From a virus, in the IMG/VR virus record IMGVR_UViG_3300005582_000151, positions 1-20,501 of that record: a stretch of 20,501 bases of DNA; one strand, written 5' to 3'. Below the pieces are notes generated by a model. That model had not been told where the DNA came from. It made no database searches and saw nothing but the letters and a program-made list of their open reading frames with translations. Positions 130 through 15,238 of this stretch are shown piece after piece. A program made the translations under genes and the position numbers. How positions within the stretch are numbered: position 1 is the first letter of the stretch; every line of letters starts with the position of its first letter.

Positions 130-158
130 AAGATAACACATATCGTACCGTTTGTCAA
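130..158 (-). promoter_or_regulatory. Sigma70-type promoter for the leftmost gene
   Basis: On the minus strand the -35 box is TTGACA (153-158), followed by a 17-bp spacer and a -10 box TATCTT (130-135). The TGA stop codon of the upstream 59-codon gene (155-157) lies inside the -35 box. The extended -35 context GGCTTGACAAA is shared with three other promoters in the window. It is placed to drive the gene starting at 86. No palindrome precedes it. Confidence 0.75.
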
Positions 159-378: not shown

Positions 379-407
379 AATATAACACCTTTTGGTCAAT
401 TTGTCAA
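379..407 (-). promoter_or_regulatory. Sigma70-type promoter for the 59-codon gene
   Basis: Minus-strand TTGACA (402-407), a 17-bp spacer and TATATT (379-384) make a near-consensus host-type promoter in the context GGGCTTGACAAA. It lies between the zincin-like gene (stop at 439) and the 59-codon gene (start at 334). A copy of the shared palindromic element (415-443) lies 7 bp upstream of the -35 box. Confidence 0.8.
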
Positions 408-414
408 GCCCTTG

Positions 415-443
415 GCTAAGTGCTTATTTTACAACAACTTACG
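415..443 (-). repeat. Palindromic element, copy 1 (degenerate left arm)
   Basis: On the plus strand the right arm ACTTACG (437-443) and inner 15 bases GCTTATTTTACAACA (422-436) match copy 2 exactly. The left arm reads GCTAAGT instead of CGTAAGT, so only 5 bp pair. The TAA stop codon of the zincin-like gene (439-441) lies inside the right arm. The element sits just upstream of the -35 box at 402-407. No U-rich tract follows it on the minus strand, so a simple terminator is unlikely. An operator or an RNA processing hairpin are the alternatives. Confidence 0.75.
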
Positions 444-1122
444 ATGGGGTGGGGCCCAGTGCACAGGGAATCCAGCGCCAGATTTTACGCATTAATGATT
501 TTTTCAATCTATCCCATTCGGTCCCTTTAAAGGCATCTTTATAAAATTTGTAACTATACAATTTTCTATGCCCATCAATATATTTTAAAATGGTTGCAGG
601 ATTTGATGTTGGGTAGTATTGATTAATTTCCATGGCGATGTCATGGGCGTATGCCTCAATCTCACACCATGTACTCAAATACTCTATATGTTTCAACCGT
701 TTTTTTGATAACTTATCCGAGTGATATACTTTTATTAATCTGTCTGAATGTTCTGGACGAAATTCATATTGACTCTTATGAATGAATTCATGTTGAATAG
801 TTTGTGATAACATGAACATGAATCCATTATATCGTGCTCGGGTAAATAGAAACTTTTTTTTATTGGGCGCAAAATGAGCATTGATTACAATAGGAATTAC
901 TTTTTCTTCTGTATCATAATGTCCCGAAAAGGAATAATATTGGTAAGAACTAATGGTATTCTTTAAATTAACATCTCTCACAATTTTTCCTTTGGCCCCC
1001 AAAGGGCGAAGAATTTTATTCATTCTTCTACTTATTTGGCCATATGTTAGCTCACTCCCGATAATATCATCAGGAGGGAAATGTTTTTCTATTTCTTTGT
1101 GTAGCTTACTAGCCAGATACAT
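439..1122 (-). CDS. Zincin-like (HExxH, SprT-type) metallopeptidase-like protein
   Basis: A 227-residue protein starting at ATG 1122 behind a GGGGGA ribosome binding site, 32 bp after the gp41 stop. Residues 111-115 read HEFIH inside a hydrophobic helix (FMFMLSQTIQHEFIHKSQY), the classic zincin signature with two zinc-binding His and the catalytic Glu. A later CEIEAYAHDIA stretch (about 153-163) could supply the third, acidic ligand. This pattern suggests a small cytoplasmic metallopeptidase-like protein related to SprT/zincin proteins seen in T4-like phages. The substrate is unknown and activity is inferred only from the motif. No signal peptide is evident. Its last two codons (Ser, stop) fall within palindrome copy 1. 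It occupies the position downstream of gp41 where T4 has primase gp61, but shows no primase motifs. Confidence 0.7.
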   Translation of the reverse strand: MYLASKLHKEIEKHFPPDDIIGSELTYGQISRRMNKILRPLGAKGKIVRDVNLKNTISSYQYYSFSGHYDTEEKVIPIVINAHFAPNKKKFLFTRARYNGFMFMLSQTIQHEFIHKSQYEFRPEHSDRLIKVYHSDKLSKKRLKHIEYLSTWCEIEAYAHDIAMEINQYYPTSNPATILKYIDGHRKLYSYKFYKDAFKGTEWDRLKKSLMRKIWRWIPCALGPTPS

Positions 1123-1154
1123 AATTCCCCCTGGGTCAAGATACTACTCACTAT

Positions 1155-2543
1155 TTATATTTTAATATTTTCAAAGTTTCGAGAAAATGTCTTAGAGGAC
1201 ACAAAATTCGGACGATTGTTGTAATCTTTCTTTTCAGGTTCTTGCATAATACTCTTTTGAGCGCTCATATCCAAATCAAACAGCTTCATCTTGGCTCTAT
1301 CAACACCAATCACAAATCTTTTGTGCTGTGAGGGATCGTTATACCGATTTTTTAATTGTTTAATGAGAAGCTGTCCCAATTTCTCTAAATCTTCTGTAGA
1401 AATCAACGCAAACATAAAATCAGCGGTTGCTGGAAGACCAAATGATTCTGATGTATCTGTCAATTCTACATCGCTATTTGAATATCCAGTTCGAGTAGTC
1501 TGTGTAGCCGTCATGATGGGGACATTAAACTCAACTGCTAACCCACGAAGTTCTTCTGCGATACCTTTGATATAAATGTAGCTGTTTACACTCCCTGACA
1601 TCTTGAAGCGACTGCTTGCACAAATGTTCAAATAATCAATAAAGATGATGTCTGGACGAATATCTTTCTTTAAACTTAATTCATTTAGCAATGCGCGAAA
1701 ATGTCCTGCATGTGCCGACGCCGTAGGATATTCTTTGATGATGAGTTTACCTTCAGTCTTTTTCTGAATGCGTGTAATTCTATCATCAAACATTTGTTTT
1801 GGAAGATTCTTTAAATCATCCATTGTGACATTCATCAAATTTGCGTCAATACGTTCAGCAATCTTTTCTTCTGCCATTTCCATTGTAATATACAATACAT
1901 TCTTGCCTTGACTTAAGGCACCTGCCGCCATGTGACACATGAATAATGACTTACCTACGCCCGTACCGGCCAGTGCAACATTCAATGTCTTTTTCGATAA
2001 TCCACCTTTTGTAATTTTATTGAAGAATTCCAAATCGAACGGAAGCTTTTCTTCAACCCGATGATAAAAATCAAACCGAGATTCACTATCTTCTAGATAA
2101 TCATGTCCTACACTGTTATCAAAACTAATTGCAAGAGCATCCTTCAGAATTTCTGGAATAGCATCAGATGTGAGTTTATCATTTTTTCCATCAATGATTT
2201 GAATGGATTGGACAATGGCATTATACACCGCCTTATCCTTACAGAATTTTTCTGTTTCAACGAGTAACCATTCAATGTTGTTTTCTTTCTGTGTTAATGT
2301 TTCAAGAACAGAAGTGATGCGATAATACTCATCTTCAGTTAACGTCTTGTCATTCTGACATGAGATGGATAACGCCTCAACACTAGGCGAAGCGTTATAC
2401 TCATCTACAAAGTTTCGAATGTGATAATATAATTTTCGTTCTATTGAATCTATAAAATATTCATCTTTGATGAAGGGAATAACTTTTCGTAAATAATTTT
2501 CATCATTCAGAAGGTTGCTCAGTATCAGGGTCTCCAGTTTCAT
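1155..2543 (-). CDS. 41: Replicative DNA helicase gp41 (DnaB family)
   Basis: A 462-residue hexameric 5'-3' helicase that unwinds the fork and would recruit the primase. An N-terminal helical domain (about 1-145) is followed by the RecA-like motor. Walker A is AGTGVGKS (192-199), the motif TMEMAEEKIAERID is at 220-233, Walker B is IIFIDYLN (299-306), and a Gln-containing motif MTATQTTR is at about 345-351. These are typical of the DnaB/gp41 family, and the length is close to T4 gp41. The ATG at 2543 follows GGAGAA at good spacing and lies inside the end of the preceding small gene (41-base overlap), so translation is probably coupled. Position downstream of uvsX matches the T4 uvsX-40-41 order. 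Confidence 0.93.
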   Translation of the reverse strand: MKLETLILSNLLNDENYLRKVIPFIKDEYFIDSIERKLYYHIRNFVDEYNASPSVEALSISCQNDKTLTEDEYYRITSVLETLTQKENNIEWLLVETEKFCKDKAVYNAIVQSIQIIDGKNDKLTSDAIPEILKDALAISFDNSVGHDYLEDSESRFDFYHRVEEKLPFDLEFFNKITKGGLSKKTLNVALAGTGVGKSLFMCHMAAGALSQGKNVLYITMEMAEEKIAERIDANLMNVTMDDLKNLPKQMFDDRITRIQKKTEGKLIIKEYPTASAHAGHFRALLNELSLKKDIRPDIIFIDYLNICASSRFKMSGSVNSYIYIKGIAEELRGLAVEFNVPIMTATQTTRTGYSNSDVELTDTSESFGLPATADFMFALISTEDLEKLGQLLIKQLKNRYNDPSQHKRFVIGVDRAKMKLFDLDMSAQKSIMQEPEKKDYNNRPNFVSSKTFSRNFENIKI

Positions 2544-2853
2544 TTACATTCTCCGTTGAGATATTTCGCTTGTCTTCCACTTGCTGCTCCATGATAGTTT
2601 GAAGAATCTTACCAATGTTGCCCTCAATTTCTTCTCGGCGTTCTTGTAAGATAATCGTTTCTGGGAGATGAATCAAGTTATAATCAAAATTAATTATGCC
2701 ATTTCCTTCTGCATCTTCTCCTGTAAATTCAACCGTACCAAATGTAAAACATGTTCCCTGTAGGGGACCGCTATCAATTTCAATATAATGAGTTGCCGTG
2801 TTTACATCGGCGTATTCGATATTTTCTTTTACAATGTAACTAGAATTAGACAT
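2503..2853 (-). CDS. Conserved hypothetical protein between uvsX and 41
   Basis: A 116-residue acidic protein with a beta-rich first two thirds (YIEIDSGPLQGTCFTFGTVEF and onward) and a Glu/Asn/Pro-rich, probably disordered tail. I do not recognise the family. It sits where T4 has gene 40 (uvsX-40-41), but I see no resemblance to gp40, so equivalence of function should not be assumed. Two starts are possible. ATG at 2859 lies only about 1 base after the AGGAG site. ATG at 2853 (MSNSSYIV) has normal spacing and is chosen here. The gene overlaps the uvsX stop codon at its start and the gp41 start at its end, which suggests tight translational coupling. Confidence 0.75.
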   Translation of the reverse strand: MSNSSYIVKENIEYADVNTATHYIEIDSGPLQGTCFTFGTVEFTGEDAEGNGIINFDYNLIHLPETIILQERREEIEGNIGKILQTIMEQQVEDKRNISTENVNETGDPDTEQPSE

Positions 2854-3895
2854 TTTCATACTCCTCTTGGATAATTTTATCAGTAAATTCCGCTATTAAG
2901 GATGAATTGGAAATAGAGTAATGTGTAGTGATCCAATCTCTGAATGTGACATCAGCAAGAATAGACATCCAGAATTCCTTTGTATCTGTATCATTTTGGC
3001 GATACTTTTTTTCCTCTCCCTTCTTTTGATACCACCCATTTGCTGGCTTCACAACATGTCCTGATTCAAGTGCAACATCCAGCAATCCAGACCATGTGCT
3101 AATACCTCCCTCAAAGGATACTTCAACAGGAATCTTACTCTTTTCACGGACAAAGCGAGACTTCTCAACATTGATGATGAAGTTGTATCCTGTCAATCCT
3201 TCGGCGCTCTTTTCCTGTTGACGCCCAATGATGAAAATGTTGTCCGCGGAATAATACACGCCAGTACCACCTGATACAATGTCCTTCGGAAACAGCCCAA
3301 TTTCCTTGTATGTGTGATTCACGACAACCATAGGAATGTCCTTGATGGTTAAATGAGGGGTACACATCCGAAACAAACTTTTAAGTTGCTTGGCACGTGT
3401 CATATCTGCAACAGACTTTCCTTCTAATGCGTCATCTACTTCTTTCTTAGACGCCAAATTACCAATTGAGTCAACAATGACGATAACATGTTCGCCTCGT
3501 TCAATGTTGTTAATCTGTGACATCATATCATGCTTCAGTTGTTCAATGTCTGTGATAGGAGTATGAATTACGCGGTCAGTGTCAATGCCGAAGCTCTTGA
3601 AGTATCCTGCAGGTGCACCAAATTCAGAATCATAAAATAGAATGGCAGCATCTTCATATTTGTCCATGTAGCTCTTGGCAAGCAACATGGCAAAGGCAGT
3701 TTTGAAATGTTTACTAGGGCCGGCAAATACCGTCAAGCCAGGGGTCAACCCCCCGTCCAACTTGCCCGATAGTGCCACATTAATCATAGGCACGGGCGTC
3801 TGAATCATATCCTTTGCTGTAAAGAATTTTGAGTCGGTTAGTATTTCGGTTTCACGAATTGTAGAATTTTTACGCAACTTATTAATTAATGACAT
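2846..3895 (-). CDS. uvsX: UvsX RecA-like recombinase
   Basis: A 349-residue strand-exchange ATPase that coats ssDNA and promotes homologous pairing and recombination-dependent replication. Walker A is GPSKHFKT (59-66), very like the GPSKSFKS of T4 UvsX. Walker B lies in HVIVIVDSIGN (136-146), and a VVVNHTYKE motif (190-198) matches the family's conserved segment. DNA-binding loop regions follow at about 150-165 and 205-215. The start ATG at 3895 has an AGGAGA site. The gene lies 10 bp after gp43 with no promoter between them, so both are probably on one transcript. Its partners here would be gp41 helicase and the gp46/gp47 nuclease. No UvsY or gp32 is in view. Confidence 0.93.
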   Translation of the reverse strand: MSLINKLRKNSTIRETEILTDSKFFTAKDMIQTPVPMINVALSGKLDGGLTPGLTVFAGPSKHFKTAFAMLLAKSYMDKYEDAAILFYDSEFGAPAGYFKSFGIDTDRVIHTPITDIEQLKHDMMSQINNIERGEHVIVIVDSIGNLASKKEVDDALEGKSVADMTRAKQLKSLFRMCTPHLTIKDIPMVVVNHTYKEIGLFPKDIVSGGTGVYYSADNIFIIGRQQEKSAEGLTGYNFIINVEKSRFVREKSKIPVEVSFEGGISTWSGLLDVALESGHVVKPANGWYQKKGEEKKYRQNDTDTKEFWMSILADVTFRDWITTHYSISNSSLIAEFTDKIIQEEYENV

Positions 3896-3904
3896 AACAT
3901 CTCC

Positions 3905-6415
3905 TTAAAATAAATCATCTAGTGTGGCAATCTTACGAGGTGACCAACTCATACAATCAAGAATGGTTCGCATAGGTTCTATAAAACTTTTTTCGAACAT
4001 TGTATTATAATCAACATACTTATGTAAGTCAAGCTCTTTAGGCAATGTTGTTGCAAATGCGATACTGTTCTCTTTAATAGGATTCGGTTCTTTCAAATAC
4101 AAATACTTAATTTTATCCCCTTCTTTAATCAGTTCGTATTTCCTATCCAACTTCTGTTTTGTAACATAATGGTTATACAACAATGAACCACGAACATGTA
4201 ATGGAGTTGCCTTTTGATAGATGTTGGCAGTTGATTTATATTTACTCATGTTGTTAGCACTTCGCGGGAATGCAATCTCCTCAGGAGACATTTGCATAAA
4301 CTTCATTTCAAGATCAGCAATATATTGTTGAATTTCATCCTGCGATTTTGTAAGTGCCAACTTTACCGTATTGCGAAGATATTCCCGAATACTCCCAGGG
4401 GTACTACTTCGAACAATTTCTAATCCCTGAACTTTCAGTTTCGGTTCTTTGTATCGCACTCCTTCACTATCATACACGTTCAAGGCATATCGCTTCTTGG
4501 CAACCCAAATAGCCGTATCGGCAATTACTTCACGTTTAAACTCCATTTTTGGAACAAACCCATTTGTTACTTCCATAATTTGCTCGCATGCCCGCGCCAA
4601 CACAATACTAATTTTTTCTTTACAGAATTTATCAATAATCTCAACTACTTTATTTTTATCATGAGTTGAAAAGTGCTTCTTGACAAGAGTATCCAATGTG
4701 ATATAACAACTATCTGTATCTGAATAGAATGTGTATTCAATATTTTCTGTACCGCATGTTTTATTCAAGTATTCATTCAAAGCACGACCAATATGTTGAA
4801 TGATGTATTGTCCCGTCAAAGTGATACCTTCGGCAATTCTGTCATCGTAGAAACGAAAGTATTGATTTGCCCAGGCACCATACAAACTATTCAACTGAAT
4901 CTTACGAGCCATTTGAATGTTGTTATACTTAGAAATCAATTTTATCTGCTCAACATCTTTTGTTTTTTCATACTCTTGTTGTGATGCAATCATTTTCTTT
5001 TTGTAAAACACCCGCTCACTAAAAATCTTTTCAACAATTTCGGGAAACAATCCCTGATGCGCGGTAGTGTAGCAATATCCATTGGCAGCCATCGTCACAT
5101 TCTGTTCATGCAATAGATTGACATGGGTAGTATTGCCATCCAACAATTTCTCAGGGGAGATGTCCAAAGATGTATTTGACATCATTGTTTCCGGACTCAT
5201 ATTATATTGCATAATGATACTAGGATACAGCGATGCCGCGTCAAAACTCACAACCCATTCATACTTACCTGGTACGGGTTCTTTTACATATGCCCCTGCA
5301 ATTGTTCTACCTTCGTGATGTTCTTTTTGTTGAACAATGATATTCTTTGCCCACAAATGATTATGAAGGATACAGTCCCAAGTACGCACCGCCGAAAAAA
5401 TGTCATTAAAGTTGCACTTGGCGTCATATGCCATTGTGATAACCAATTCAATCAATTTCATTTTATCTTCAAGAGCGTCAACCAACTCTACGTCAATAAC
5501 GTTATATTCCACAAATGATTGCCAATCATTCGTATAGTGGTCTTTGAACGTTTCATATTTTGTTTCCAACTTTTTACGTCCTAATTCGTGCTGGGCAATG
5601 TAATCAAGTTTATAACTTTCTTGAGTAGAGTATGTAAACTTTTTATACAAATCCAGATAATCTAAACTACTTACGCCGAAAATATCAGCTGTGAGAAATT
5701 CTCGACCATTTCGTGTAATATATCGTTCATTAACAATACGCCAAGGTGAAAGCTCCTTAATCCTATCCTCTCCTAATATTCTCTTGATGCGGACAAGAAG
5801 ATATGGCATATCGAATAGTTGTGTGTTCCAACCTGTCACAACATCTGGCATTGTTGCTTGCCAAAAGTGAAGAAATGTAGACAGCAAATCCGCTTCATCG
5901 CGGCATTTCACATATTCAAAATTATTTTTATTGGTGATGTGCTTAATGTTATCAACATCAAATTTCTTTGCACCAAAAGTAGTAATTTTCTTCGTGTTAT
6001 TATCTTGCACCGTGATGAGCAGGACTTCTTCAATAGGATTATCAATACTCGGAAATCCATTTTCTGAAGCAGTTTCAATATCTAAAGACAGAATTGTTAA
6101 TTGACTAATATCATAATCAATTTCAGTAGGATACTTTTCTGTGATGTATTGATAGGCAAATGAGGTGTTACCGAAGATGGGAAAGTTTTCCACCTCCTTA
6201 TACTTCTTTATAAACTCTTTTGCATCGTTAATATCACCAAACTGAATAGGCTCTAAATTGTCACCAAACAAACTTGTGTGTTTTGTTTTGTTTTGTGATT
6301 TGATAAACATCGTGGGACGAAATTCCACTCGATGATTATCCCGCTTGCCGTTACGAATTTCACGGACAAGAATTTTATTACCATATTGCAAGATATTCGT
6401 GTAAAAATTCTTCAT
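3905..6415 (-). CDS. 43: DNA polymerase gp43 (family B)
   Basis: An 836-residue replicative polymerase, somewhat shorter than T4 gp43 (898). The 3'-5' exonuclease motifs are visible: LDIET (D112, E114), VTGWNTQLFD (193-202) and YNVIDVE (304-310). The polymerase motifs are motif A FDAASLYPS (391-399, D392), motif B around K505 (ARKIQLNSLYG) and motif C YSDTDS (564-569, with D566 and D568). All key residues are present, so both activities should be intact. The protein ends in TLDDLF, which resembles a clamp-binding peptide for gp45. ATG at 6415 has a strong GGAGGAGG site, and a promoter lies 26 bp upstream (6441-6469). In T4 the gp43 mRNA is repressed by RegA and by gp43 itself; I did not see an obvious operator hairpin at this start. 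Confidence 0.97.
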   Translation of the reverse strand: MKNFYTNILQYGNKILVREIRNGKRDNHRVEFRPTMFIKSQNKTKHTSLFGDNLEPIQFGDINDAKEFIKKYKEVENFPIFGNTSFAYQYITEKYPTEIDYDISQLTILSLDIETASENGFPSIDNPIEEVLLITVQDNNTKKITTFGAKKFDVDNIKHITNKNNFEYVKCRDEADLLSTFLHFWQATMPDVVTGWNTQLFDMPYLLVRIKRILGEDRIKELSPWRIVNERYITRNGREFLTADIFGVSSLDYLDLYKKFTYSTQESYKLDYIAQHELGRKKLETKYETFKDHYTNDWQSFVEYNVIDVELVDALEDKMKLIELVITMAYDAKCNFNDIFSAVRTWDCILHNHLWAKNIIVQQKEHHEGRTIAGAYVKEPVPGKYEWVVSFDAASLYPSIIMQYNMSPETMMSNTSLDISPEKLLDGNTTHVNLLHEQNVTMAANGYCYTTAHQGLFPEIVEKIFSERVFYKKKMIASQQEYEKTKDVEQIKLISKYNNIQMARKIQLNSLYGAWANQYFRFYDDRIAEGITLTGQYIIQHIGRALNEYLNKTCGTENIEYTFYSDTDSCYITLDTLVKKHFSTHDKNKVVEIIDKFCKEKISIVLARACEQIMEVTNGFVPKMEFKREVIADTAIWVAKKRYALNVYDSEGVRYKEPKLKVQGLEIVRSSTPGSIREYLRNTVKLALTKSQDEIQQYIADLEMKFMQMSPEEIAFPRSANNMSKYKSTANIYQKATPLHVRGSLLYNHYVTKQKLDRKYELIKEGDKIKYLYLKEPNPIKENSIAFATTLPKELDLHKYVDYNTMFEKSFIEPMRTILDCMSWSPRKIATLDDLF

Positions 6416-6440
6416 TCAACCTCCTCCGGGCTATGAATGT

Positions 6441-6469
6441 AATATAACATGATGATATACTTTTGTCAA
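6441..6469 (-). promoter_or_regulatory. Sigma70-type promoter for the 43-uvsX-41 unit
   Basis: Minus-strand TTGACA (6464-6469), 17-bp spacer, TATATT (6441-6446), in the context ATCTTGACAAAA. It lies between the terminator hairpin (6473-6496) and the gp43 start at 6415. It has no palindromic element; the terminator takes that place. It probably drives polymerase, UvsX, the small protein and gp41 together. Confidence 0.82.
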
Positions 6470-6472
6470 GAT

Positions 6473-6496
6473 ACAACAAACCTCCCTTTCGGGAGG
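6473..6496 (-). terminator. Hairpin terminator after the small LSm-like gene
   Basis: On the minus strand CCTCCC, the tetraloop GAAA and GGGAGG form a 6-bp all-GC-rich stem (6481-6496), followed by the T-rich run TTTGTTGT (6473-6480). The GNRA-type loop and compact stem are typical of intrinsic terminators in T4-like phages. The hairpin begins 10 bp past the stop codon at 6507 and ends next to the gp43 promoter, separating two transcription units. Confidence 0.85.
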
Positions 6497-6506
6497 CCTG
6501 TTTATG

Positions 6507-6803
6507 TTATACGAGTTCTAGCTTTGGTCGGTCAGGCATGATGATTCCTTTACCGGTAATCCTATTATATTCATTCTTCAGTTGGTCGGCTGCCTCATAC
6601 AACAATACGATATGTTCCCGAGAATAAGAAAATTTCTTGGAAGCCGCGAATGGCAGAAATGGCGCAAGACCAATAGAATATTGATGTTCTTGTGTCGGGA
6701 TAAGCACAACCACACATGGATTTTCAATGGTAAGTGTGTCCCCTTGGACCTCAACATCACCTATCAAATCTTCGCCGGTAATTAGTTTGATACATTTAAT
6801 CAT
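6507..6803 (-). CDS. Small conserved phage protein, possibly LSm-like
   Basis: A 98-residue protein: MIKCIKLITGEDLIGDV, then short beta-strand-like segments, ENP (28-30), a LAPFLPFA segment (about 46-53), a helical YEAADQLKNEYNRITG region and a final PKLEL. The N-terminal pattern (KLITGEDLIGDVEVQGDTLTIENP) resembles the five-stranded LSm-like barrels of small T4-like phage proteins. That is recognition by eye, not a search result. An RNA-binding role would be an inference. The start has only a weak ribosome binding site, so it may depend on the upstream Hsp20 gene (41 bp away). A strong terminator follows. Confidence 0.7.
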   Translation of the reverse strand: MIKCIKLITGEDLIGDVEVQGDTLTIENPCVVVLIPTQEHQYSIGLAPFLPFAASKKFSYSREHIVLLYEAADQLKNEYNRITGKGIIMPDRPKLELV

Positions 6804-6843
6804 AATAAACTCAACTGTAGGGGGTTAGGAGGATGCTACTTAA

Positions 6844-7272
6844 TTACAAAATTTCAATTTTGCGTGGCTTCTTTTCTTCTGGAATGATGCGTTCCAGCTT
6901 AATAGCTAGCACACCATCCATAAGTGAAGCATCATTGATTACTACGTCATCGGCCAATGTCCACTTTCGTGTAAACGCACGCTTGGCCAATCCACGATGA
7001 ACATATTCCACATCTTCATCTGTGTTGTTCGTGTTGGCAGTAATGGTGAGGACACCCTCTGCCATTACTACATCTAATTCACTGCGCTTAAATCCAGCGA
7101 CAGCAAGTTCGATACTCCAATGTTCAGCATCATGCTTAACAATGTTGTATGGGGGATAGTTGCTTACACTATTAGCCGATTCAATAGTATGAAACCGGTC
7201 CCAGAGACTATCAAAGCCAATGGCCCATGGTGTGTTAAGAGATGCAGCGTTAAAAGTATAGGTACGTGTCAT
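6844..7272 (-). CDS. hsp20: Small heat shock protein Hsp20
   Basis: A 142-residue alpha-crystallin-type chaperone, close to the length of IbpA. The alpha-crystallin domain runs from about residue 42 (YNIVKHDAEHWSIELAVAGFK) through SELDVVMAEGVLTITA to VINDASLMDGVLAIKLE. The C-terminal RKIEIL carries an IxI-type tail motif, which in this family docks onto neighbouring subunits to form oligomers. Such proteins hold unfolding proteins without ATP, and Hsp20 is common in T4-like marine phages. ATG at 7272 follows an AAAGGAGG site. The gene has its own promoter (7329-7357) after regA and shares a transcript with the small gene downstream. Confidence 0.92.
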   Translation of the reverse strand: MTRTYTFNAASLNTPWAIGFDSLWDRFHTIESANSVSNYPPYNIVKHDAEHWSIELAVAGFKRSELDVVMAEGVLTITANTNNTDEDVEYVHRGLAKRAFTRKWTLADDVVINDASLMDGVLAIKLERIIPEEKKPRKIEIL

Positions 7273-7328
7273 AATTCCTCCTTTGAGCGAATGTGTTAGT
7301 GATACCCTTTCGGCGTATCTTACAGTTA

Positions 7329-7357
7329 AATATAACTCCTAACACCCCTACAGTCAA
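7329..7357 (-). promoter_or_regulatory. Sigma70-type promoter for hsp20
   Basis: Minus-strand TTGACT (7352-7357), 17-bp spacer, TATATT (7329-7334). It differs from consensus at the last base of the -35 box. It starts 4 bp after the regA stop codon and lies 57 bp before the hsp20 start. No palindrome precedes it. Confidence 0.75.
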
Positions 7358-7360
7358 GTC

Positions 7361-8219: not shown

Positions 8220-8700
8220 GTGTCACTAAGTCTAATGTGGCAGTTTCTTCGAACATCTTATAGTTTCTATATCCTCGTTCTGTGATGAATTCAACATCAT
8301 GCGAAGGATTTTTATCTACATTGATACTACTCTTTCCCCGATAGAAATCTAACGGATACAGATACACATTATCTGGAGTGTCAACATCAACCCCAAAAAG
8401 AATATCAATACCAATTTTGGCATAATCTGTCTTTCTTCTTTTTGACCCCTTGTCCTTACCATTTCCTGTACCATATGTTTCAATACTTCTATTTTTACTA
8501 GTTAATGCCTTTACTTGTACCAGCTTTTGCTCTCCTGTTCGGGGATGACGAATCACTAAATCATATGGAGAGGATGTATTCACAGGAGTTGACATCTCCC
8601 AACCTCGATAGATGAAAAATTTCTGAGCCGTTAGTTCTGCGATTTGTCCTTTTTCATGGGCAGTCACATATGTCGAATAGGAATCGGGAATAAGATTCAT
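8206..8700 (-). CDS. PD-(D/E)XK endonuclease-like protein
   Basis: A 164-residue protein. KGQIAELTAQKFFIYRGWEM (17-36) gives a helix with E22. SSPYDLVI (43-50) supplies D47, and KLVQVKALT (59-67) gives the Q-x-K form of the active site (Q62, K64). This arrangement matches the PD-(D/E)XK endonuclease family related to archaeal Holliday junction resolvases and to some homing nucleases, which often have QVK. A middle basic segment (KDKGSKRRKTDYAKIG) could bind DNA. The start overlaps the gp44 stop by ATGA, and its end overlaps gp62, so it is made together with the clamp loader. The substrate is unknown. DNA repair, branch resolution and homing are all open. Confidence 0.75.
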   Translation of the reverse strand: MNLIPDSYSTYVTAHEKGQIAELTAQKFFIYRGWEMSTPVNTSSPYDLVIRHPRTGEQKLVQVKALTSKNRSIETYGTGNGKDKGSKRRKTDYAKIGIDILFGVDVDTPDNVYLYPLDFYRGKSSINVDKNPSHDVEFITERGYRNYKMFEETATLDLVTHDES

Positions 8701-9647
8701 AGTATTTTTTTCATCTCACATGACGCCATAATTTCTGTTAAACATGCCACTAAATTAATTTCTGCGTCAGCTACAAATGCTGCTTTATATTGATAGTCAG
8801 CTAACAATAATACGAACTGGGGAACCTGAGATACTTCAGGCAATAACGTATCATATAATTTTCGAAATAACATGTTCGGATCGTTGTCCATGTTGTTGAC
8901 AACCCAACTGCGCATCTTTTTAAAGTCCTTTTCTCGGAGAGATGCAATCAATTCCTTCATGTTTGCATCCCCCATATGACTGAGAATGCCTACGTCAACA
9001 TTGCCTGAAGATGCATATCGCTGTAATTCATTCAACACTCGGCGATAATCAGGAAAATGTTTATTTAATACTTCAGCAACCACCTTTGGATCAAATGTCA
9101 CTTGTTCTTCTTTCAAAATATCTGTCAATCTCTTGAAGAATTTTGTTGCCATTACAGGCTTGTCATCCTTTGTCAACTTGAAATCAATCACAGTCGTTCT
9201 ACTATGTAGAGGCGGGATGATTCTATTCTTGTAATTACATGTGAAAATGAAACGACAATTCTTACTAAATTCTTCAATGAAACCACGAAGGGCGGGTTGT
9301 GTGGAGTTAGGATTCAAATAATCAGCTTCATCAAGAATCACAACCTTTGTCTTGCCCGCAAATGATACTGTGCTGGCAAAATCTTTAATCTTAGTCCTCA
9401 GAACATCAATACCTGATTCCTCAGAACCGTTGATAATAATATAATCACATTCCAATTCTTCACACAGAGCCCGTGCCACCGTAGTTTTACCTGTACCTGC
9501 TGTGCCTGCCAAGAGCATGTTAGGAATATTGTCCTTATCAATAAACTCTTGGAAGGTATTTTTTAATGATTGCGGAAGAATACAATCGGAAATTTTCCGC
9601 GGACGATACTTTTCAACCCAAAGAAACTGCTCACGATTTACTTCCAT
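8697..9647 (-). CDS. 44: Clamp loader large subunit gp44
   Basis: A 316-residue AAA+ ATPase, essentially the length of T4 gp44 (319). The N-terminal WVEKYRPRKISDCILP is the family signature. Walker A is AGTAGTGKTT (47-56), Walker B is VVILDEAD (102-109), sensor 1 is TCNYKNR (136-142), and the HSRTTVIDF segment corresponds to the SRC motif region. It uses ATP to open gp45 and place it at primer ends. The start at 9647 is 6 bp beyond the gp45 stop with only a weak AAAGG site, so coupling to gp45 translation is likely. It forms the loader with gp62. Confidence 0.96.
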   Translation of the reverse strand: MEVNREQFLWVEKYRPRKISDCILPQSLKNTFQEFIDKDNIPNMLLAGTAGTGKTTVARALCEELECDYIIINGSEESGIDVLRTKIKDFASTVSFAGKTKVVILDEADYLNPNSTQPALRGFIEEFSKNCRFIFTCNYKNRIIPPLHSRTTVIDFKLTKDDKPVMATKFFKRLTDILKEEQVTFDPKVVAEVLNKHFPDYRRVLNELQRYASSGNVDVGILSHMGDANMKELIASLREKDFKKMRSWVVNNMDNDPNMLFRKLYDTLLPEVSQVPQFVLLLADYQYKAAFVADAEINLVACLTEIMASCEMKKIL

Positions 9648-9653
9648 AATATA

Positions 9654-10334
9654 TTATACCTTTGAAGTGGCGTCGGCTGCAATCAAATATGTTAATTCAG
9701 AAGTGGTAGATTCAAAGAAAAATACTAATACCTTGCCTGCTTTGGCAATGGCATACGACACATGAACTGTATAGTCACCAGGAACAATCTTAAATGTGTC
9801 AATTGCCATTTTCACATCAAACGACATATCACTTTCTCCCAAGGGCTGAGTTAATGAATGAGCCGTTGAATTCTTTGGATCATTTACACTTAAAATAACC
9901 TTGCCATTTTTTGATACGATATTCATCATTGTAGCAGACACAACAGAAGCCGTCTTAACGACCATATTGATATCAGATGCGCTGAGTTTAAATGAATACA
10001 AATGTTCAAGTTGAGGCGGATTATCTGCAGGAGCCGTTACCAGACTCTCGTCTGCATAATTAAATCGGTGATTGACGCCCCCGCCATGTTTGATTTCAAG
10101 ATGTTTTTCATGAAACTCAATATCGGGCGTCTGAGACAGTGATAGTAATGTCAAAAACTGACCCAAATCATACACGGCAAACTGCTGAGGAAATGTTTCC
10201 TCAACCACAGCACGTGCTTGAATACTGTTTACTGAATTACGAGTTGCCAATTTATTGCCCGTTTTAACCAAAAGGTTAGGACTAATTTGTGCAAAACTCT
10301 GTAATAGTGATACCGTCTTGGAACTAATCTTCAT
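9654..10334 (-). CDS. 45: Sliding clamp gp45
   Basis: A 226-residue processivity clamp, matching T4 gp45 (228). It starts MKISSKTVSLLQSFAQISPNLLVKTGN, has the clamp segments VYDLGQFLTLLSLSQTPDIEF and the central YSFKLSASDINMVVKTASVV, and ends with the typical YTVHVSYAIAKAGKVLVFFFES region. Trimers would encircle DNA and bind gp43, and in T4 they also act in late transcription. I chose ATG 10334, with a GAGGAAAAG site, over an upstream in-frame ATG at 10367 that lies inside the preceding gene. It overlaps that gene's end by 11 bases. RegA target status is inferred from T4. Confidence 0.95.
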   Translation of the reverse strand: MKISSKTVSLLQSFAQISPNLLVKTGNKLATRNSVNSIQARAVVEETFPQQFAVYDLGQFLTLLSLSQTPDIEFHEKHLEIKHGGGVNHRFNYADESLVTAPADNPPQLEHLYSFKLSASDINMVVKTASVVSATMMNIVSKNGKVILSVNDPKNSTAHSLTQPLGESDMSFDVKMAIDTFKIVPGDYTVHVSYAIAKAGKVLVFFFESTTSELTYLIAADATSKV

Positions 10335-10614
10335 GTTGCTTTTCCTCAATGTAAGTGTCATGTACATGTAATAACATAATAGCGTAGTGAATGATTTTCA
10401 AGATGTCATCCCGATTATGTCCATTCTTTTTCCCATATCGCTGTGCATACTTCATGATGTTACCTACTGTGAACCCAACCCCATGTCCATTATCAAAAAT
10501 GAATTCAGATGCCTGAAATTTATTTCGTGAATAATGTTGGGTGTAGGTCTTATTAATGTACGCCTGTATTTCCCGAAAGATTGTATCCTCAGAATAGCGA
10601 TAATCAATTTCCAT
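10324..10614 (-). CDS. DUF3310-like phage protein
   Basis: A 96-residue protein of the small phage family recognised by GFTVGNIMKYAQRYGKKNGHNRDDILKIIHYAIMLL (47-82). The pattern 'GN-x-x-KY-x-x-R-x-G-K-K-N-x-x-x-x-DI-x-K' is the DUF3310 signature found in many tailed phages, sometimes annotated as nucleotide-kinase-like. The function is not established. Its start shares bases with the stop of the preceding gene (TAATG), with no strong ribosome binding site, so it is probably coupled. Its end overlaps gp45. Confidence 0.8.
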   Translation of the reverse strand: MEIDYRYSEDTIFREIQAYINKTYTQHYSRNKFQASEFIFDNGHGVGFTVGNIMKYAQRYGKKNGHNRDDILKIIHYAIMLLHVHDTYIEEKQHED

Positions 10615-10976
10615 TATGCCTGCACCACAGGATACTGCCCACCCTCAGCTTCCGACAATGTGCGATACCATCCATTACAATTACGGAGCTTACCAGGAGC
10701 GCCGGATACTTCACAAATGGTGAAGCTACGTTTTTCGACATCACGAATCTTTGTATCTAGAAAGTCATTGATGTTATCGGTGTAAATTCGAAGCCCGCCC
10801 CACTTTTCCTTGACCTGAATGATACGAGTGTTGGTAATCTTTTGCTGCTCAATGAAATCAAAAATTTCATTAACAAGAGATGTCCAACCCGCCCCTACAG
10901 ATTCAAGAGCAAGATTTCTGTCATACCCCTCGTATACAACAAACGTAGGATATCGGGGTGATACAATTTTAGCCAT
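10614..10976 (-). CDS. Conserved phage protein with KEKWGGLR motif, unknown function
   Basis: A 120-residue protein starting at ATG 10976 (MAKIVSPRY). This start follows GAGGAGA at normal spacing; a longer reading from TTG 10991 would place the ribosome binding site inside the gene and is rejected. VGAGWTSLVNEIFDFIE (32-48) and IIQVKEKWGGLRIYTDN (57-73) match a widespread phage family of unknown function. The later CEVSGAPGKLRNCNGWYRTLSEAE looks like a worn-down zinc-binding end: relatives as I remember them have paired Cys, but here only two Cys remain. The start overlaps the upstream 58-codon gene by 8 bases. Confidence 0.75.
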   Translation of the reverse strand: MAKIVSPRYPTFVVYEGYDRNLALESVGAGWTSLVNEIFDFIEQQKITNTRIIQVKEKWGGLRIYTDNINDFLDTKIRDVEKRSFTICEVSGAPGKLRNCNGWYRTLSEAEGGQYPVVQA

Positions 10977-11145
10977 GTGTGTTCTCCTCAATTAAATCTT
11001 CAACGATGAAATCTGGAATAGATAAAATCCTATATGGATCTTTCATGTTAACTCGCGTTTTAGTTTTTTGTTCTGCATGTTCCCAGACGCCTCTGGCATA
11101 TGCTTTCTTTAATATATACAATAATTGTTCTTTTGTCAAGATCAT
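10969..11145 (-). CDS. Small protein, 58 aa, unknown function
   Basis: An open frame from ATG 11145 to TAA 10969 (MILTKEQLLYILKKAYARGVWEH... ending IEENTHG). Its ATG overlaps the stop of the preceding gene as ATGA, and its stop overlaps the start of the next gene by 8 bases. It therefore fills an otherwise empty gap with the spacing typical of this operon, which is the main support. The predicted product is a helical, charged N-terminal half (TKEQLLYILKKAYARGVWEHAEQK) plus an acidic end. I recognise no family. A complete promoter-like sequence lies within its first codons. Confidence 0.75.
   Translation of the reverse strand: MILTKEQLLYILKKAYARGVWEHAEQKTKTRVNMKDPYRILSIPDFIVEDLIEENTHG
11111..11139 (-). 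promoter_or_regulatory. Candidate promoter inside the 58-codon gene
   Basis: Minus-strand TTGACA (11134-11139), 17-bp spacer, TATATT (11111-11116). This is as good a match as the intergenic promoters and shares the context ATCTTGACAAAAG with the gp43 promoter. However it falls inside codons 2-12 of the small gene. It could be an internal promoter for the downstream small genes and the 45-44-62-regA unit, or the gene may instead be untranslated leader. A chance match cannot be ruled out. Confidence 0.55.
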
Positions 11146-11411
11146 TTTGCTTTTTCTTCACCAGTAGGTTCATACGGCAATATTTCTACTACTCCTTCCT
11201 GTGACATACACCAACATTTAGGTTTTTCAATCTTTTGAAAATAATGATAATTGTGACATCTATAGGTGGTGATATTCACCATATCAATATGGTTATGCCA
11301 ATTTCCTTCTTCGTCAAAATATTGAAATACTTCACCTGAGTTTTCTGAGAAAACTGTAAGTATGAATACATGACTTTTTATATTTTCGGCTTTACATGCG
11401 GGGCAAATCAT
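11142..11411 (-). CDS. Small Cys-rich protein, possible zinc-binding
   Basis: An 89-residue protein. CPAC at 3-6 and two later Cys groups, YRCHNYHYF (C52) and PKCWC (C66, C68), could hold one zinc ion in a zinc-ribbon-like fold. The intervening FDEEGNWHNHIDMVNITTYRC strands fit a compact beta structure. I do not recognise the family. It begins 1 base after the stop of the preceding gene, so translation is probably coupled. It ends in the ATGA overlap with the 58-codon gene. Confidence 0.7.
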   Translation of the reverse strand: MICPACKAENIKSHVFILTVFSENSGEVFQYFDEEGNWHNHIDMVNITTYRCHNYHYFQKIEKPKCWCMSQEGVVEILPYEPTGEEKAK

Positions 11412-11627
11412 TTAACGTGATTTATCCTTATCTAATCCATATTCATAAAAATAATATATTACTGCATCATCAAATGCCTTTTCGGTAAACGTCACACCTA
11501 CCATCAAGGTTTTAAATGCCTCAAACAATGTATTGGCATCACTGTCCTTGGGGAGTTCAACACTCACCTTTCGGTTGTATGCACTTGCCGTCAAGGTCAA
11601 TTCTTTGTATTTGTCAATTCCATACAT
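11412..11627 (-). CDS. Small hypothetical protein, 71 aa
   Basis: A 71-residue protein (MYGIDKYKELTLTASAYNRK to YGLDKDKSR) with beta-type N-terminal half and a helical, aromatic-rich C-terminal half (FEAFKTLMVGVTFTEKAFDDAVIYYFYEY). An AGGAGAG site precedes ATG 11627 at slightly long spacing. It lies 17 bp after the cobS-like gene and leads into a run of small genes, probably on the transcript from the cobS-like promoter. No known motif is visible. Confidence 0.65.
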   Translation of the reverse strand: MYGIDKYKELTLTASAYNRKVSVELPKDSDANTLFEAFKTLMVGVTFTEKAFDDAVIYYFYEYGLDKDKSR

Positions 11628-11644
11628 GATGTTTAACTCTCCTG

Positions 11645-12757
11645 TTAAAAGGAAGGAGGAACTGTTTCCTCTACTTCATTCTCTGTGGTTGGCATTTCTA
11701 CGCCGGCATCCACCTTGGTGTACAGATCCAAGAAACTTGTCTTGGTGTCCTCGTCAAAACGCGCGATGCAGACATTAATCGCCTTCAAGCGGTCATTAAA
11801 CATGGCAAAGGCGTTTACAATATGTTCAAGACGGCGAGTGGAGATGAGGTCGTCAATGGCACCTTCCTTGAACGTCTTGCGAATAATTTCTGCCCACGCT
11901 ACCAACTTGTCAGCGAAATCCTCATCTACTTTTTCCACGCGCTCCATCTTTTTCATGATAATCTTCTTTTCAACCGAAGCGGACGGATACTCTTGCTCAA
12001 CGGTGATGGCAAATCGTTCAAGGAAGGCATCGTCCAGAATTTGTGCTGACATGTACTTACCATCGGTGGTGCCCTGACCCTTGGTATTGGCAGTTCCTAT
12101 GATATTGAACCCAGGTGTGGGATAAATTGTTTCACCTGTCTTTTTATTGAAATAGGGCTTACCTTCCAGAATTGCCTGCAGGCACATGAGCTTGTTACTG
12201 CCGCGGTCACACTCGTCAAGAATAAGCACTGACCCTCGCTTCATGGCGATGATCACGGGTCCCTCACGATTCACTACATTGCCATTCACTAGTGTGTTGC
12301 CCCCAATGAGGTCATCCTCATCAGTCTCAATGCTAATGTTCACACGGATACATTCGCGCTTCAGAGTAGCACATGCCTGTTCCGCCATAGTGGTCTTACC
12401 ATTACCTGACATTCCTGTGATAAACACCGGGTAAAACATCTTACTGTTTAGAATAGTCAACAGATCCTTATAGAAACCAAAAGGAACAAACGTCTTGTCC
12501 TTTACAGGGACAATGTCTGATACCTCAACCTTAAGTTTTGGTTGAACAAGGTACATTTCAGAAGCAGTATTCATAGTAGGAATCTCAACCTTGGCCGGAG
12601 TTGTCTCAATAGTATAAACGCCACGTGCAATCTTGTGTGCAGGATTATTGAGAAATGTATTAGGATTTTCACTTACTTTTCGCGCCACCCCGAGAATTTC
12701 AGGGCGAGAAAATTCCGTCTTTCCTGTAGTACGAAGGGCATCAATGAGTCTAGTCAT
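11645..12757 (-). CDS. cobS: MoxR/CobS-type AAA+ ATPase
   Basis: A 370-residue ATPase. An N-terminal region of about 100 residues, not obviously conserved, precedes the AAA+ module: Walker A GMSGNGKTT (115-123), the segment IGGNTLVNGNVVNREGP (151-167), Walker B VLILDECDR (177-185), sensor 1 IIGTANTKGQGTTDG (219-233) and the arginine-finger region LDDAFLERF (241-249). This is the MoxR group, closest to the CobS subunit of cobaltochelatase, and T4-like cyanophages often carry a cobS gene. CobS works with a VWA partner, and the VWA gene here is directly upstream. No cobN is in view, so a role in B12 synthesis is doubtful. The ATG has a GGAG site. It has its own promoter (12805-12833) preceded by palindrome copy 2. 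Confidence 0.85.
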   Translation of the reverse strand: MTRLIDALRTTGKTEFSRPEILGVARKVSENPNTFLNNPAHKIARGVYTIETTPAKVEIPTMNTASEMYLVQPKLKVEVSDIVPVKDKTFVPFGFYKDLLTILNSKMFYPVFITGMSGNGKTTMAEQACATLKRECIRVNISIETDEDDLIGGNTLVNGNVVNREGPVIIAMKRGSVLILDECDRGSNKLMCLQAILEGKPYFNKKTGETIYPTPGFNIIGTANTKGQGTTDGKYMSAQILDDAFLERFAITVEQEYPSASVEKKIIMKKMERVEKVDEDFADKLVAWAEIIRKTFKEGAIDDLISTRRLEHIVNAFAMFNDRLKAINVCIARFDEDTKTSFLDLYTKVDAGVEMPTTENEVEETVPPSF

Positions 12758-12804
12758 GTTTACTCCTATGTGCTTGAATGATATCGTGTCGTTCTCATAT
12801 TATA

Positions 12805-12833
12805 AATATACAGCCATTTACATCATTTGTCAA
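12805..12833 (-). promoter_or_regulatory. Sigma70-type promoter for the cobS-like gene
   Basis: Minus-strand TTGACA (12828-12833), 17-bp spacer, TATATT (12805-12810), context GGGCTTGACAAA. The palindromic element copy 2 ends 2 bp upstream of the -35 box. It drives the cobS-like gene (start 12757) and probably the small genes that follow. Confidence 0.82.
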
Positions 12834-12835
12834 GC

Positions 12836-12872
12836 CCTACGTAAGTGCTTATTTTACAACAACTTACGTAGG
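12836..12872 (-). repeat. Palindromic element, copy 2 (perfect 11-bp arms)
   Basis: The plus strand reads CCTACGTAAGT (12836-12846), a 15-base inner segment GCTTATTTTACAACA (12847-12861), then ACTTACGTAGG (12862-12872): a perfect 11-bp inverted repeat. It lies between the cobT-like stop (12882) and the cobS-like promoter, 2 bp from the -35 box. As RNA it would make a long hairpin, but no U-tract follows on the minus strand. It is placed like an operator; a 3'-end RNA hairpin is the alternative. Confidence 0.85.
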
Positions 12873-12881
12873 ACTAGAATA

Positions 12882-15128
12882 TTATGCCACTTGTTCAATA
12901 AATCTATTCAAGAATACCCGTGAAATCATTTTTGTATTTTGCATTTTCTTGAATGCCTTAAGCAGAGAGCCTTTCGATACTACATCCTTGTAACTTTTAA
13001 GGGTGCTAGCCATATCCACATCTTCAACCTCCAACTCCTCTCCTGGCACCATGTAATATGCATCATATCCTGCAATTTTCATACCGAAATACTTGTATTT
13101 TGTAAACTCATCAGCATATTGTGTATCAAATGCTTCCTGATTGAAATCATTAGTATTTCTATGCATAGTACCTAAAATTGTACGGCGATGATGTCTCCCT
13201 GACATTAGATAGAATCCAACAACACGCGATCCAGTGTGTTGACGATACATTTCAAGAAGGGCGAGAGTAGAATTATCACCACAGTTTGATACCATAACCT
13301 GTTTCTTAGTTTTTCTATCTTCAATTACTACACGTTGACGAGACTTGTATCCGCTGTAACTAACCTTGTCATTATCTCTGTAATAATATCCACATGTTGA
13401 TGCATCGCCATCAGTGAGTAGGACTGTATTAAGAATTTCAACCTGAGTATTCTTTTTAAATTCTTCTGCGAGTGAACGCAAGACCAAAACAGTTTCGTTC
13501 AACGGCGTACCGCCTAACTGCATCGAAGCAGGAATGTTGTAGTTACCTGCACGATAATAATTTCTTGAGGACTTGTATCCATTTGCCACAAGAAGAAGAT
13601 TCTTTACAGAAAAATTAAACTCTGCTGTTCCCATCTTGTAGTGTAGCAACTGTTTCAGTCGGAAATCATTTTCTGTAATTTGAATGGATCCATTACGGTT
13701 ATCATTAATGGGACCATCTTTTATTACGTGACCTAAAATAGGATGGGTGATTGCTGGCCGGACAATGCCTGCCAGAGCAAAATCTTTTTCACCATTTGTA
13801 TCAATAAATCCATATACATCAAAGGGAATATTCACCTTACGACAAAATAGAGAGAGATTGACAATCTGCTCAATGGTGCCTGACATGTTATCAGTCATTG
13901 AGCTTGACATGTCAACGACCATTAGCATTCCATGATTTTTCCCGTTAGGGACTGTGGTTGACTGTAGGAACAAATCTTCCGACAACTGATACCGCCAAAG
14001 TTTCTTAGTATCCAATTTACCAGTTTTACTTACCCGAGCCTTGGCAAATTGTTTGGCATTTCGCTTCAGCTCAAATTCCTTTACGAGGTAACTAATATAG
14101 TTTCGGTTAGTGCGCATGAATTCATTATACACACTAGTCTCTTTCTCCAAAGAGAAACTATTAAATTCTGAGCGCATTTGCTGATGTACCACGCGAGCAG
14201 GAATCACAAAGTCCTTATGATTCAATTCAGGCCAAAAGAGGTATGTGATAGGATATGCTGCATCATCAATAAGCTTTTCCTGATTGGCTTCCAATGCTTC
14301 ATCAGTAATAGATCCAACATCCTGATTTTCCGCCCAATCAGTCATTGCTCTGCGATATTCCTCACTCTTTGCCATTTGTTCTAATTTGTCGGCGGCCCTA
14401 GATTTGCCGGCGGCGCGCAGCTTATTTAACACATCTGGCAAGGGAAGAGGATTGCCGTCTACATCACCCTCTGAGTATTGTGAATCACCTTGACCTTCCT
14501 GCATGTTTTCAGTTGCATCGGTAAGCGAATCAAGATTATCAATAATATCTTCAGAAATATCGTCGAATTCACTTTCTGCAATGTTAAACAATTCCCTAGA
14601 CAAAGACAGTACTTCATCCCAGGTATCAGCAGCCTCGATCCGGGTGACAAGGTGTGTCTCATCCTCCGTGAAGGTGACTCCAGAACGAACTCCTAGTTTG
14701 AAATATGCATTAATCCGGTCGGCAAACGGAAGATGCTTTATGTCATCCATGTTAATCCCAAAAAATCCTCGCTCTACCAGTTGAGAATATCCATTGTACA
14801 TGGGTTTTCGAAGACCTGGGAACTTCTGCTTCATCAACTTTTCGATTCGTGCATCCTCAACAATATTGAGAATATTTTTGAAATTGATGCCCATCTCCCT
14901 CGCCTCGTCCAGCCAACCATCAGGAGGAGTGTACAGCGCATGACCCACCTCATGTCCAATCATGAGGTCATAGAGGTCTGCGTCAACTTCCTTCCAGATG
15001 GGAAGAACAAGAACGCGGTCCTTGACATCAAAGCTAGGTCCTTTAACCTGTCGGTGCTCGATGCGAATGTTCTCTGCTGCCAAAAGCTTGCCTAAGGTAG
15101 ACTTTGTATTGTCTAGAAGGTTTGACAT
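12882..15128 (-). CDS. cobT: CobT-like VWA protein with HEVGH metallopeptidase-like motif
   Basis: A 748-residue protein. An N-terminal zincin-like region has HEVGH (59-63) followed by NIVEDARIEKLMK (88-100), where a Glu may be the third metal ligand. A middle acidic stretch (about 186-228, rich in Asp/Glu) resembles the acidic region of CobT. The C-terminal VWA domain begins about 400: MIDAS DMSSS (406-410), GGTPLNET (MIDAS Thr) and TDGD further on. VWA proteins of this kind pair with MoxR/CobS ATPases, and the cobS-like gene is next. The C-terminus is AFKKMQNTKMISRVFLNRF. ATG 15128 has a GAGGAAAC site. The true reaction is unknown. Chelatase-like remodelling or ATP-driven proteolysis are both possible. 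The symbol is by similarity of architecture only. Confidence 0.78.
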   Translation of the reverse strand: MSNLLDNTKSTLGKLLAAENIRIEHRQVKGPSFDVKDRVLVLPIWKEVDADLYDLMIGHEVGHALYTPPDGWLDEAREMGINFKNILNIVEDARIEKLMKQKFPGLRKPMYNGYSQLVERGFFGINMDDIKHLPFADRINAYFKLGVRSGVTFTEDETHLVTRIEAADTWDEVLSLSRELFNIAESEFDDISEDIIDNLDSLTDATENMQEGQGDSQYSEGDVDGNPLPLPDVLNKLRAAGKSRAADKLEQMAKSEEYRRAMTDWAENQDVGSITDEALEANQEKLIDDAAYPITYLFWPELNHKDFVIPARVVHQQMRSEFNSFSLEKETSVYNEFMRTNRNYISYLVKEFELKRNAKQFAKARVSKTGKLDTKKLWRYQLSEDLFLQSTTVPNGKNHGMLMVVDMSSSMTDNMSGTIEQIVNLSLFCRKVNIPFDVYGFIDTNGEKDFALAGIVRPAITHPILGHVIKDGPINDNRNGSIQITENDFRLKQLLHYKMGTAEFNFSVKNLLLVANGYKSSRNYYRAGNYNIPASMQLGGTPLNETVLVLRSLAEEFKKNTQVEILNTVLLTDGDASTCGYYYRDNDKVSYSGYKSRQRVVIEDRKTKKQVMVSNCGDNSTLALLEMYRQHTGSRVVGFYLMSGRHHRRTILGTMHRNTNDFNQEAFDTQYADEFTKYKYFGMKIAGYDAYYMVPGEELEVEDVDMASTLKSYKDVVSKGSLLKAFKKMQNTKMISRVFLNRFIEQVA

Positions 15129-15172
15129 TGTTTCCTCTTTTGATGGACGTCAAGGACTTATCGTATACTAAT

Positions 15173-15201
15173 AATATAGCACACAATAAGTCCTTTGTCA
15201 A
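15173..15201 (-). promoter_or_regulatory. Sigma70-type promoter for the cobT-like gene
   Basis: Minus-strand TTGACA (15196-15201), 17-bp spacer, TATATT (15173-15178), context GGGCTTGACAAA. It lies between the ClpP-like stop (15234) and the cobT-like start (15128), with palindrome copy 3 ending 8 bp upstream of the -35 box. Confidence 0.82.
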
Positions 15202-15209
15202 GCCCTATC

Positions 15210-15238
15210 CGTAAGTTATTGTAAAATAAGCACTTACG
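15210..15238 (-). repeat. Palindromic element, copy 3 (inner segment inverted)
   Basis: Plus-strand arms CGTAAGT (15210-15216) and ACTTACG (15232-15238) enclose the 15 bases TATTGTAAAATAAGC. That inner segment is the reverse complement of the inner segment of copies 1 and 2 except for one base. So relative to the downstream promoter this copy points the other way. The TAA stop of the ClpP-like gene (15234-15236) lies in the right arm. Confidence 0.83.

Follow-up and report, generated by a model that had tools for sequence, protein, structure and literature searches.

PeSL (promoter-early stem-loop) cassettes of T4-type phages were reportedly described by Arbiol et al. in 2010 and by Comeau et al. 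in 2014. Their stem-loop is an effective terminator, and the cassettes lie in hyperplastic regions, where they mediate gene shuffling. A secondary account gives their order as stop codon, stem-loop and strong sigma70-type promoter (PMC4503421). Here we compare with this arrangement an element that recurs in the window, as we call the whole stretch of 20,501 nucleotides that was analysed. The window is part of a T4-like phage genome. The genes recognized in it, all on the minus strand, encode gp41, UvsX, gp43, Hsp20, RegA, gp62, gp44, gp45, CobS-like and CobT-like proteins, a ClpP-like protease, peptide deformylase, gp46, gp47 and QueD.

An imperfect dyad upstream of three promoters

The earlier note on this DNA had described a shared 29-bp palindrome in three copies. 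The repeat itself is real: the 24-mer searched matched the window three times with at most one mismatch and never in 100 dinucleotide shuffles. Copies 1 and 2 are identical across 27 bp (417-443 and 12842-12868), and copy 3 matches their reverse complement except at one position (97% complementarity across 29 nt). The proposed length and arms had to be revised, however. On the plus strand copy 1 reads GCTAAGT...ACTTACG and lacks the CGTAAGT arm; the arms common to all three copies are TAAGT/ACTTA only, and the outer CG/CG pairing is present in copies 2 and 3 but not in copy 1. Among the three, a perfect 11-bp arm (12836-12872) is found only in copy 2, where the flanks extend the core. The corrected unit is a 25-bp site, TAAGTnnTTRnnnnnYAAnnACTTA, an imperfect dyad of two similar, unequal half-sites, usually TAAGTTGTT on the side distal to the promoter and TAAGTGCTT on the proximal side (Table 1). 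In copies 1 and 3 the element's own first TAA is the stop codon of the preceding gene, just as had been claimed, and the near-consensus promoter said to follow each copy was confirmed, with TTGACA-17-TATATT behind all three.

Table 1. Element copies, their promoters and adjoining genes in the window; gaps are counted from the 25-bp core to TTGACA
Feature	Position	Strand	Remarks
Element copy 1	417..441	-	25-bp core along transcription TAAGTTGTTGTAAAATAAGCACTTA; distal half TAAGTTGTT, proximal half TAAGTGCTT; TAA 439-441 is the orf227 stop codon
Element copy 2	12842..12866	-	core identical to copy 1; starts 18 bp past the CobT stop codon
Element copy 3	15212..15236	+	core along transcription TAAGTGCTTATTTTACAATAACTTA; one change, inverted relative to transcription (TAAGTGCTT half distal); TAA 15234-15236 on the minus strand is the ClpP-like stop codon
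orf59 promoter	379..407	-	TTGACA-17-TATATT, 9 bp past copy 1; -35 hexamer starts at 407
CobS-like gene promoter	12805..12833	-	TTGACA-17-TATATT, 8 bp past copy 2; -35 hexamer starts at 12833
CobT-like gene promoter	15173..15201	-	TTGACA-17-TATATT, 10 bp past copy 3; -35 hexamer starts at 15201
orf59, 59-aa ORF downstream of copy 1	155..334	-	kept in relatives; no family
orf227, 227-aa ORF ending in copy 1	439..1122	-	kept in relatives; no family
CobS-like AAA ATPase, downstream of copy 2	11645..12757	-	phrog_249
CobT-like peptidase, between copies 3 and 2	12882..15128	-	phrog_459
ClpP-like / head-maturation-type protease, ending in copy 3	15234..15854	-	phrog_1827; Lys/Pro-rich tail

Three further features of the window were seen. 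An inverted repeat with 10-bp arms encloses the CobT promoter's -10 region (15152-15195); in the relative G002 its two arms have altered in concert (GGCTTATCGG/CCGATAAGCC), in the manner of a compensated change. The Lys/Pro-rich tail of the ClpP-like protein is encoded by a 12-bp repeat (15249-15295; TPKKTPKKAPKKTPKKKKTS). A 125-aa ORF (orf125, 10614-10991) adjoins gp45, has a CxxxG zinc-finger-like end and matches no family; it has relatives in the unrelated jumbo phages, whereas few named phages carry one.

Placement and retention in T4-like relatives

Exact searches of viral contigs with the core identified the larger relatives G002 (124 kb), G001 (119 kb), G005, G006 and G007. A weight matrix derived from 27 distinct sequences was then used to scan six genomes (the window, G001, G002, G005, G037 and G038), a check that the earlier note had suggested for constant placement upstream of -35 boxes. 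The placement proved constant: all 22 strong copies, seven of them in the 178-kb genome of G037, lay 6-10 bp upstream of a TTGAC promoter, and none was found elsewhere. Among 57 distinct copies from related phages, the distance to TTGAC was 6 bp in 1, 7 in 14, 8 in 23, 9 in 15 and 10 in 4, or 7-9 bp in 52 of the 57. Some of the searches behind this set required TAAGT/ACTTA and a restricted gap (5-11 in the regular expression). An earlier scan of the collection had allowed gaps of 2-16, and its T4-like matches likewise fell at 6-10. The bases between the element and the -35 box differ widely among the 57 copies despite the near-constant gap; such constancy across variable bases is a sign that element and promoter are coupled. 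In 36 of these copies at least 40 open codons precede the element's TAA in its frame.

The proteins of the window are colinear with those of the relatives, with CobT identities of 74% in G002 and 43% in G001. The ClpP-CobT, CobT-CobS and orf227-orf59 junctions keep their copies in the relatives, even at 43% CobT identity. At the ClpP-CobT junction the G001 copy is oriented opposite to that of the window, so orientation was flipped during evolution and position was not. A less biased set was assembled by picking CobS neighbours by protein similarity, not by the motif, and inspecting the DNA upstream. Among the closest of these (70-80% identity) that were inspected, all except L429 have the element, exact or slightly altered, at the CobT-CobS junction; in L429 the CobT stop codon abuts an intact promoter. 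Most relatives with 60-67% identity lack the full element. In one of 66% identity, L433, it lies upstream of its usual place by about 27 bp, and four others (L432, L480, L487 and L490) keep the distal half alone, TAAGTnnTTGAT, at the CobT stop codon. This survey indicates that the element is a separate unit, open to gain and loss, which this clade has nonetheless retained vertically. The suggestion of a mobile unit thus finds no support, at least for recent times, since orthologous junctions keep their copies.

The isolated distal halves bear on another explanation, in which the element would be a site for host IHF, or for a similar bending protein, or a UP-like A/T tract, with IHF bending the DNA upstream of the promoter. 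The location near -57 would suit such a site, as would the distant relatives that keep only the distal half. The distal half and the centre, TAAnnnnTTGATW, fit the consensus YAAnnnnTTGATW from the other strand, and many copies read TAAGTnnTTGATTT. However, the IHF consensus WATCAANNNNTTR fits the distal half in many relatives' copies but in none of the three window copies, which, like those of G001 and G002, have TTGTA, TTGAA or TTTCA instead of TTGAT. Neither the conserved GT nor the second half-site is needed by IHF, and the centres in jumbo phages are often G/C-rich. We consider an IHF site improbable.

Hairpin or double-stranded DNA site

The element might instead be the stem-loop of a T4-style stem-loop and early promoter cassette, ending the upstream transcript, starting the next and perhaps allowing cassettes to be shuffled by homologous recombination. 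Its order of parts is that given for PeSLs (PMC4503421). Other strong promoters of the same phages have at the element's place either a classical hairpin, such as CCTCCC-GAAA-GGGAGG at the gp43 promoter (window, 6469) and the hairpin in G002 (106430), or nothing recognizable. Some promoters have a GC stem across the -35 box (mean score 8.7 versus 6.3 in shuffled sequences, with 0 of 500 shuffles reaching the mean), and copy 2 folds at -24.9 kcal/mol (z = -7.1). At CobT-CobS copies with a non-coding left flank (window copy 2, G002, L416 and L422), complementarity extends far past the core, the flanks adding 7-10 pairs to the dyad, and this leaves room for a structural role of the extended dyad at that junction. 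Against this, folding is weak in copy 1 (z -1.8) and copy 3 (z -2.4), and terminator calling picked out none of the three window copies. The sequence right after the element is CGTAGGGC, GCCAAGGGC or CGGATAGGGC, with no U-tract. A Rho-independent terminator, with its GC-rich stem and subsequent T run, was accordingly rejected as a description of the element.

If a hairpin were selected, the halves of a copy should match one another better than halves from different copies. For 33 distinct cores the mean ensemble energy was -4.54 kcal/mol, compared with -5.62 for recombined halves, and 995 of 1000 recombined sets in the sense direction and 997 of 1000 in the antisense direction folded at least as well as the real cores. 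The halves are not matched for pairing; real pairs fold worse than recombined ones, and hairpin or terminator stability is therefore not selected. This favours a putative protein target over just a hairpin, as the earlier note had argued. In the straight register core positions 6/20 and 7/19 are unpaired, and a shifted register with one bulged base pairs. A search of Rfam 15 with the window and the jumbo-phage loci gave no family above the gathering score.

The proximal half TAAGTGCTT occurs in 34 of the 57 copies and the distal half TAAGTTGTT in 28 of 57, and most copies have one orientation relative to the promoter. The notion of a two-fold symmetric operator needs amending accordingly: the site is two-fold and tolerates inversion, but its symmetry had been overstated, as the halves are consistently unequal. 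Membership of the PeSL class would explain the layout, but not the missing terminator features, the absence of selection for pairing or the fixed spacing, and copies lie at conserved core-gene junctions and are kept there. The element punctuates gene and promoter as a PeSL does, but we do not class it as one, a reading that seems to us rather unlikely.

Genes behind the element promoters

In G037 the element precedes the genes for CobT, CobS and the orf59 homologue, a WYL_2 ORF with a 366-aa ORF behind it, a 65-aa ORF, a GP88-family gene and a 29-gene tRNA array, whose first tRNA lies just past the element promoter. The grouping of the cobT-like, cobS-like and 59-codon genes proposed earlier thus recurs as a shared gene set, and extends to the tRNA array and several small ORFs; that these genes form one regulon is a prediction from sequence. 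In G037 (98228), in L296 and L208 and at the tRNA-array promoters, a GC-rich inverted repeat straddles the -35 box, placing TTGACA in its loop and the -10 region in a T-rich tail. Such promoters may lie within a terminator that acts on read-through transcripts.

Distribution beyond the T4-like phages

The asymmetric motif TAAGTYRTTRnnnnAYAAGYACTTA was found in at least 119 stretches of viral contigs, compared with 11 for the reversed control pattern. Beyond the T4-like phages, most of the matches listed were in large phages without a gp43-type polymerase. The jumbo-phage sites lie between small genes in one clustered region per genome and are doubled, with a second TAAGTnnTT exactly 53 bp on in 70 of 103. 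Unrelated jumbo phages (L497, L498, L499 and records G026-G032) carry clusters of doubled sites, the two members of which lie 53 bp apart around a GC-rich near-palindrome. Many jumbo sites are preceded at 10-25 bp by a sigma54-like TGGCAC-N5-TTGC that points at the site and away from the neighbouring gene (L177 3340-3450, L039 and similar).

The exact 53-bp pairing and the clustering would be in keeping with an element of 11-bp arm, 7-bp spacer and 11-bp arm on which a site-specific recombinase or transposase acts to move gene cassettes. The small genes flanked by these sites also differ in order between L177 and L039, in the manner of a cassette array. However, a search of 15 element-bearing phages for a tyrosine recombinase or integrase gave none over the cut-off and one sub-threshold match, in G035. 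Centres vary between copies within one genome, and in T4-like phages the distance to the promoter is fixed and copies are retained at orthologous places. We give little credence to a recombination or mobile site.

In bacteria, the strict motif occurred in none of 343 Planctomycetota genomes and was absent from 348 of 349 Pseudomonadota genomes; the sole exception among the 692 genomes sampled is the one that contains the phage-like contig L177. Restriction to phages in the bacteria sampled, whose phyla may not include the true hosts, favours a phage-encoded factor. The contig L177 had been assigned to a Gammaproteobacteria MAG. Beside small phage-like genes it codes for a subtilase-like protein (5996-7210) starting FESLESRRVLS, a motif typical of Planctomycetes; the contig is probably mis-binned. 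A genome scan with a symmetric pattern returned 24 matches, mostly in termite-gut Planctomycetaceae and Treponema, many of them perfect hairpins beside tRNA genes. We did not accept these as copies of the element: they may be ordinary terminators caught by a palindromic query, and the asymmetric motif gave nothing in the Planctomycetota and Pseudomonadota genomes besides L177's genome. The half-motif AAATCAAnnACTTA is over-represented in 40 Pseudomonadota genomes (78 versus 17 for the reversed control). Several half-motif copies, in L547, L556, L562, L564 and L569, start about 10 nt or less from the 3' end of a tRNA gene, some in terminator-like hairpins.

Among named phages, blastn with a 37-mer gave weak, partial matches only, and the jumbo double-site consensus gave none. 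Another consensus returned recurring 17-19-mers, TAAGTTGTTGATTTATAAG, at gene ends in Aeromonas, Vibrio and Shewanella phages, at E values of 0.8 or worse on which we do not rely. Photosystem genes were not found in the relatives. The proteins common to the T4-like and jumbo phages are UvdE, IMP dehydrogenase/GMP reductase, PhoH, ligase, a DksA-like zinc finger protein and orf125, none of which is a clear regulator. WYL_2 was rejected as a shared regulator because it is absent from the jumbo phages tested.

Proposed function of the element

We propose, with about even confidence, that the element is a double-stranded DNA operator for one sequence-specific, probably phage-encoded, putative protein that acts on the sigma70-type promoter beside the element. 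The sequences directly show the site itself, its constant position, its survival at orthologous junctions, its capacity to be inverted and the absence of selection for a hairpin, and conserved inverted half-sites at a constrained promoter distance are what characterizes the operator of a dimeric protein. From these we infer that a protein binds, that the phage encodes it and that it activates rather than represses. Two half-sites, alike but unequal, oppose each other across an A/T-rich centre and would form the docking site of one putative protein, which from about -57 relative to the promoter start might contact or modulate the sigma70-type RNA polymerase. The promoters so controlled would be those of the CobT-like, CobS-like and orf59-like genes, the tRNA array and some small ORFs. 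The L429 promoter that has no element and the displaced element of L433 count against an operator.

It is conceivable, though we hold it only tentatively, that one phage-restricted code (half-sites TAAGTnnTTR) is common to two unrelated lineages: single, 7-9 bp from the promoter of a defined gene set including the tRNA array in T4-like phages, and in pairs exactly 53 bp apart in cassette arrays in jumbo phages. If so, an exchanged family of phage DNA-binding proteins would be implied, and the same half-sites in unrelated jumbo phages would constitute a rare cis-regulatory code common across phage lineages. An operator would also provide a searchable motif that predicts co-switched promoters (the tRNA array, the CobS/CobT pair and small ORFs) in an uncultured T4-like group, and a route to the missing regulator.

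Comparison with known systems

The element resembles PeSL in being a compact intergenic unit after a stop codon, with a strong sigma70-like early promoter directly behind a dyad or stem-loop, an arrangement found at 22 of 22 strong copies. It differs in its A/T-rich, sequence-conserved, unequal half-sites, in lacking a U-tract and in its near-constant distance of 7-9 bp from the -35 box, and its sequence does not suggest an effective terminator. Moreover, it is kept at core-gene junctions and not in hyperplastic regions; shuffled arrays were seen in jumbo phages only.

The jumbo versions, as doubled dyads between gene cassettes 53 bp apart, recall integron attC sites, BIME/REP and res-type elements. 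A distance of 53 bp is about five helical turns, like that between res sites I and II. However, RYYYAAC/GTTRRRY cores were absent on inspection and no integrase, nor any other tyrosine recombinase, exceeded the cut-off in the 15 phages, so an integron attC site was rejected; the T4-like version, besides, is single and tied to a promoter. The half-site contains TGCTT, as does the T4 MotA box. The MotA box replaces the -35 region at -30, whereas the element is centred at about -57 and its promoters have a consensus TTGACA, and MotA-dependent middle promoters were rejected on these grounds. Phage or bacterial operators of dimeric regulators upstream of the -35 box differ from the element in that its halves are systematically unequal, and no known regulator or matching consensus was found for it. 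The likeness to such operators, in the class I activator position, lies in the inverted half-sites, the centre at about -57, the near-constant spacing and the occurrence in either orientation.
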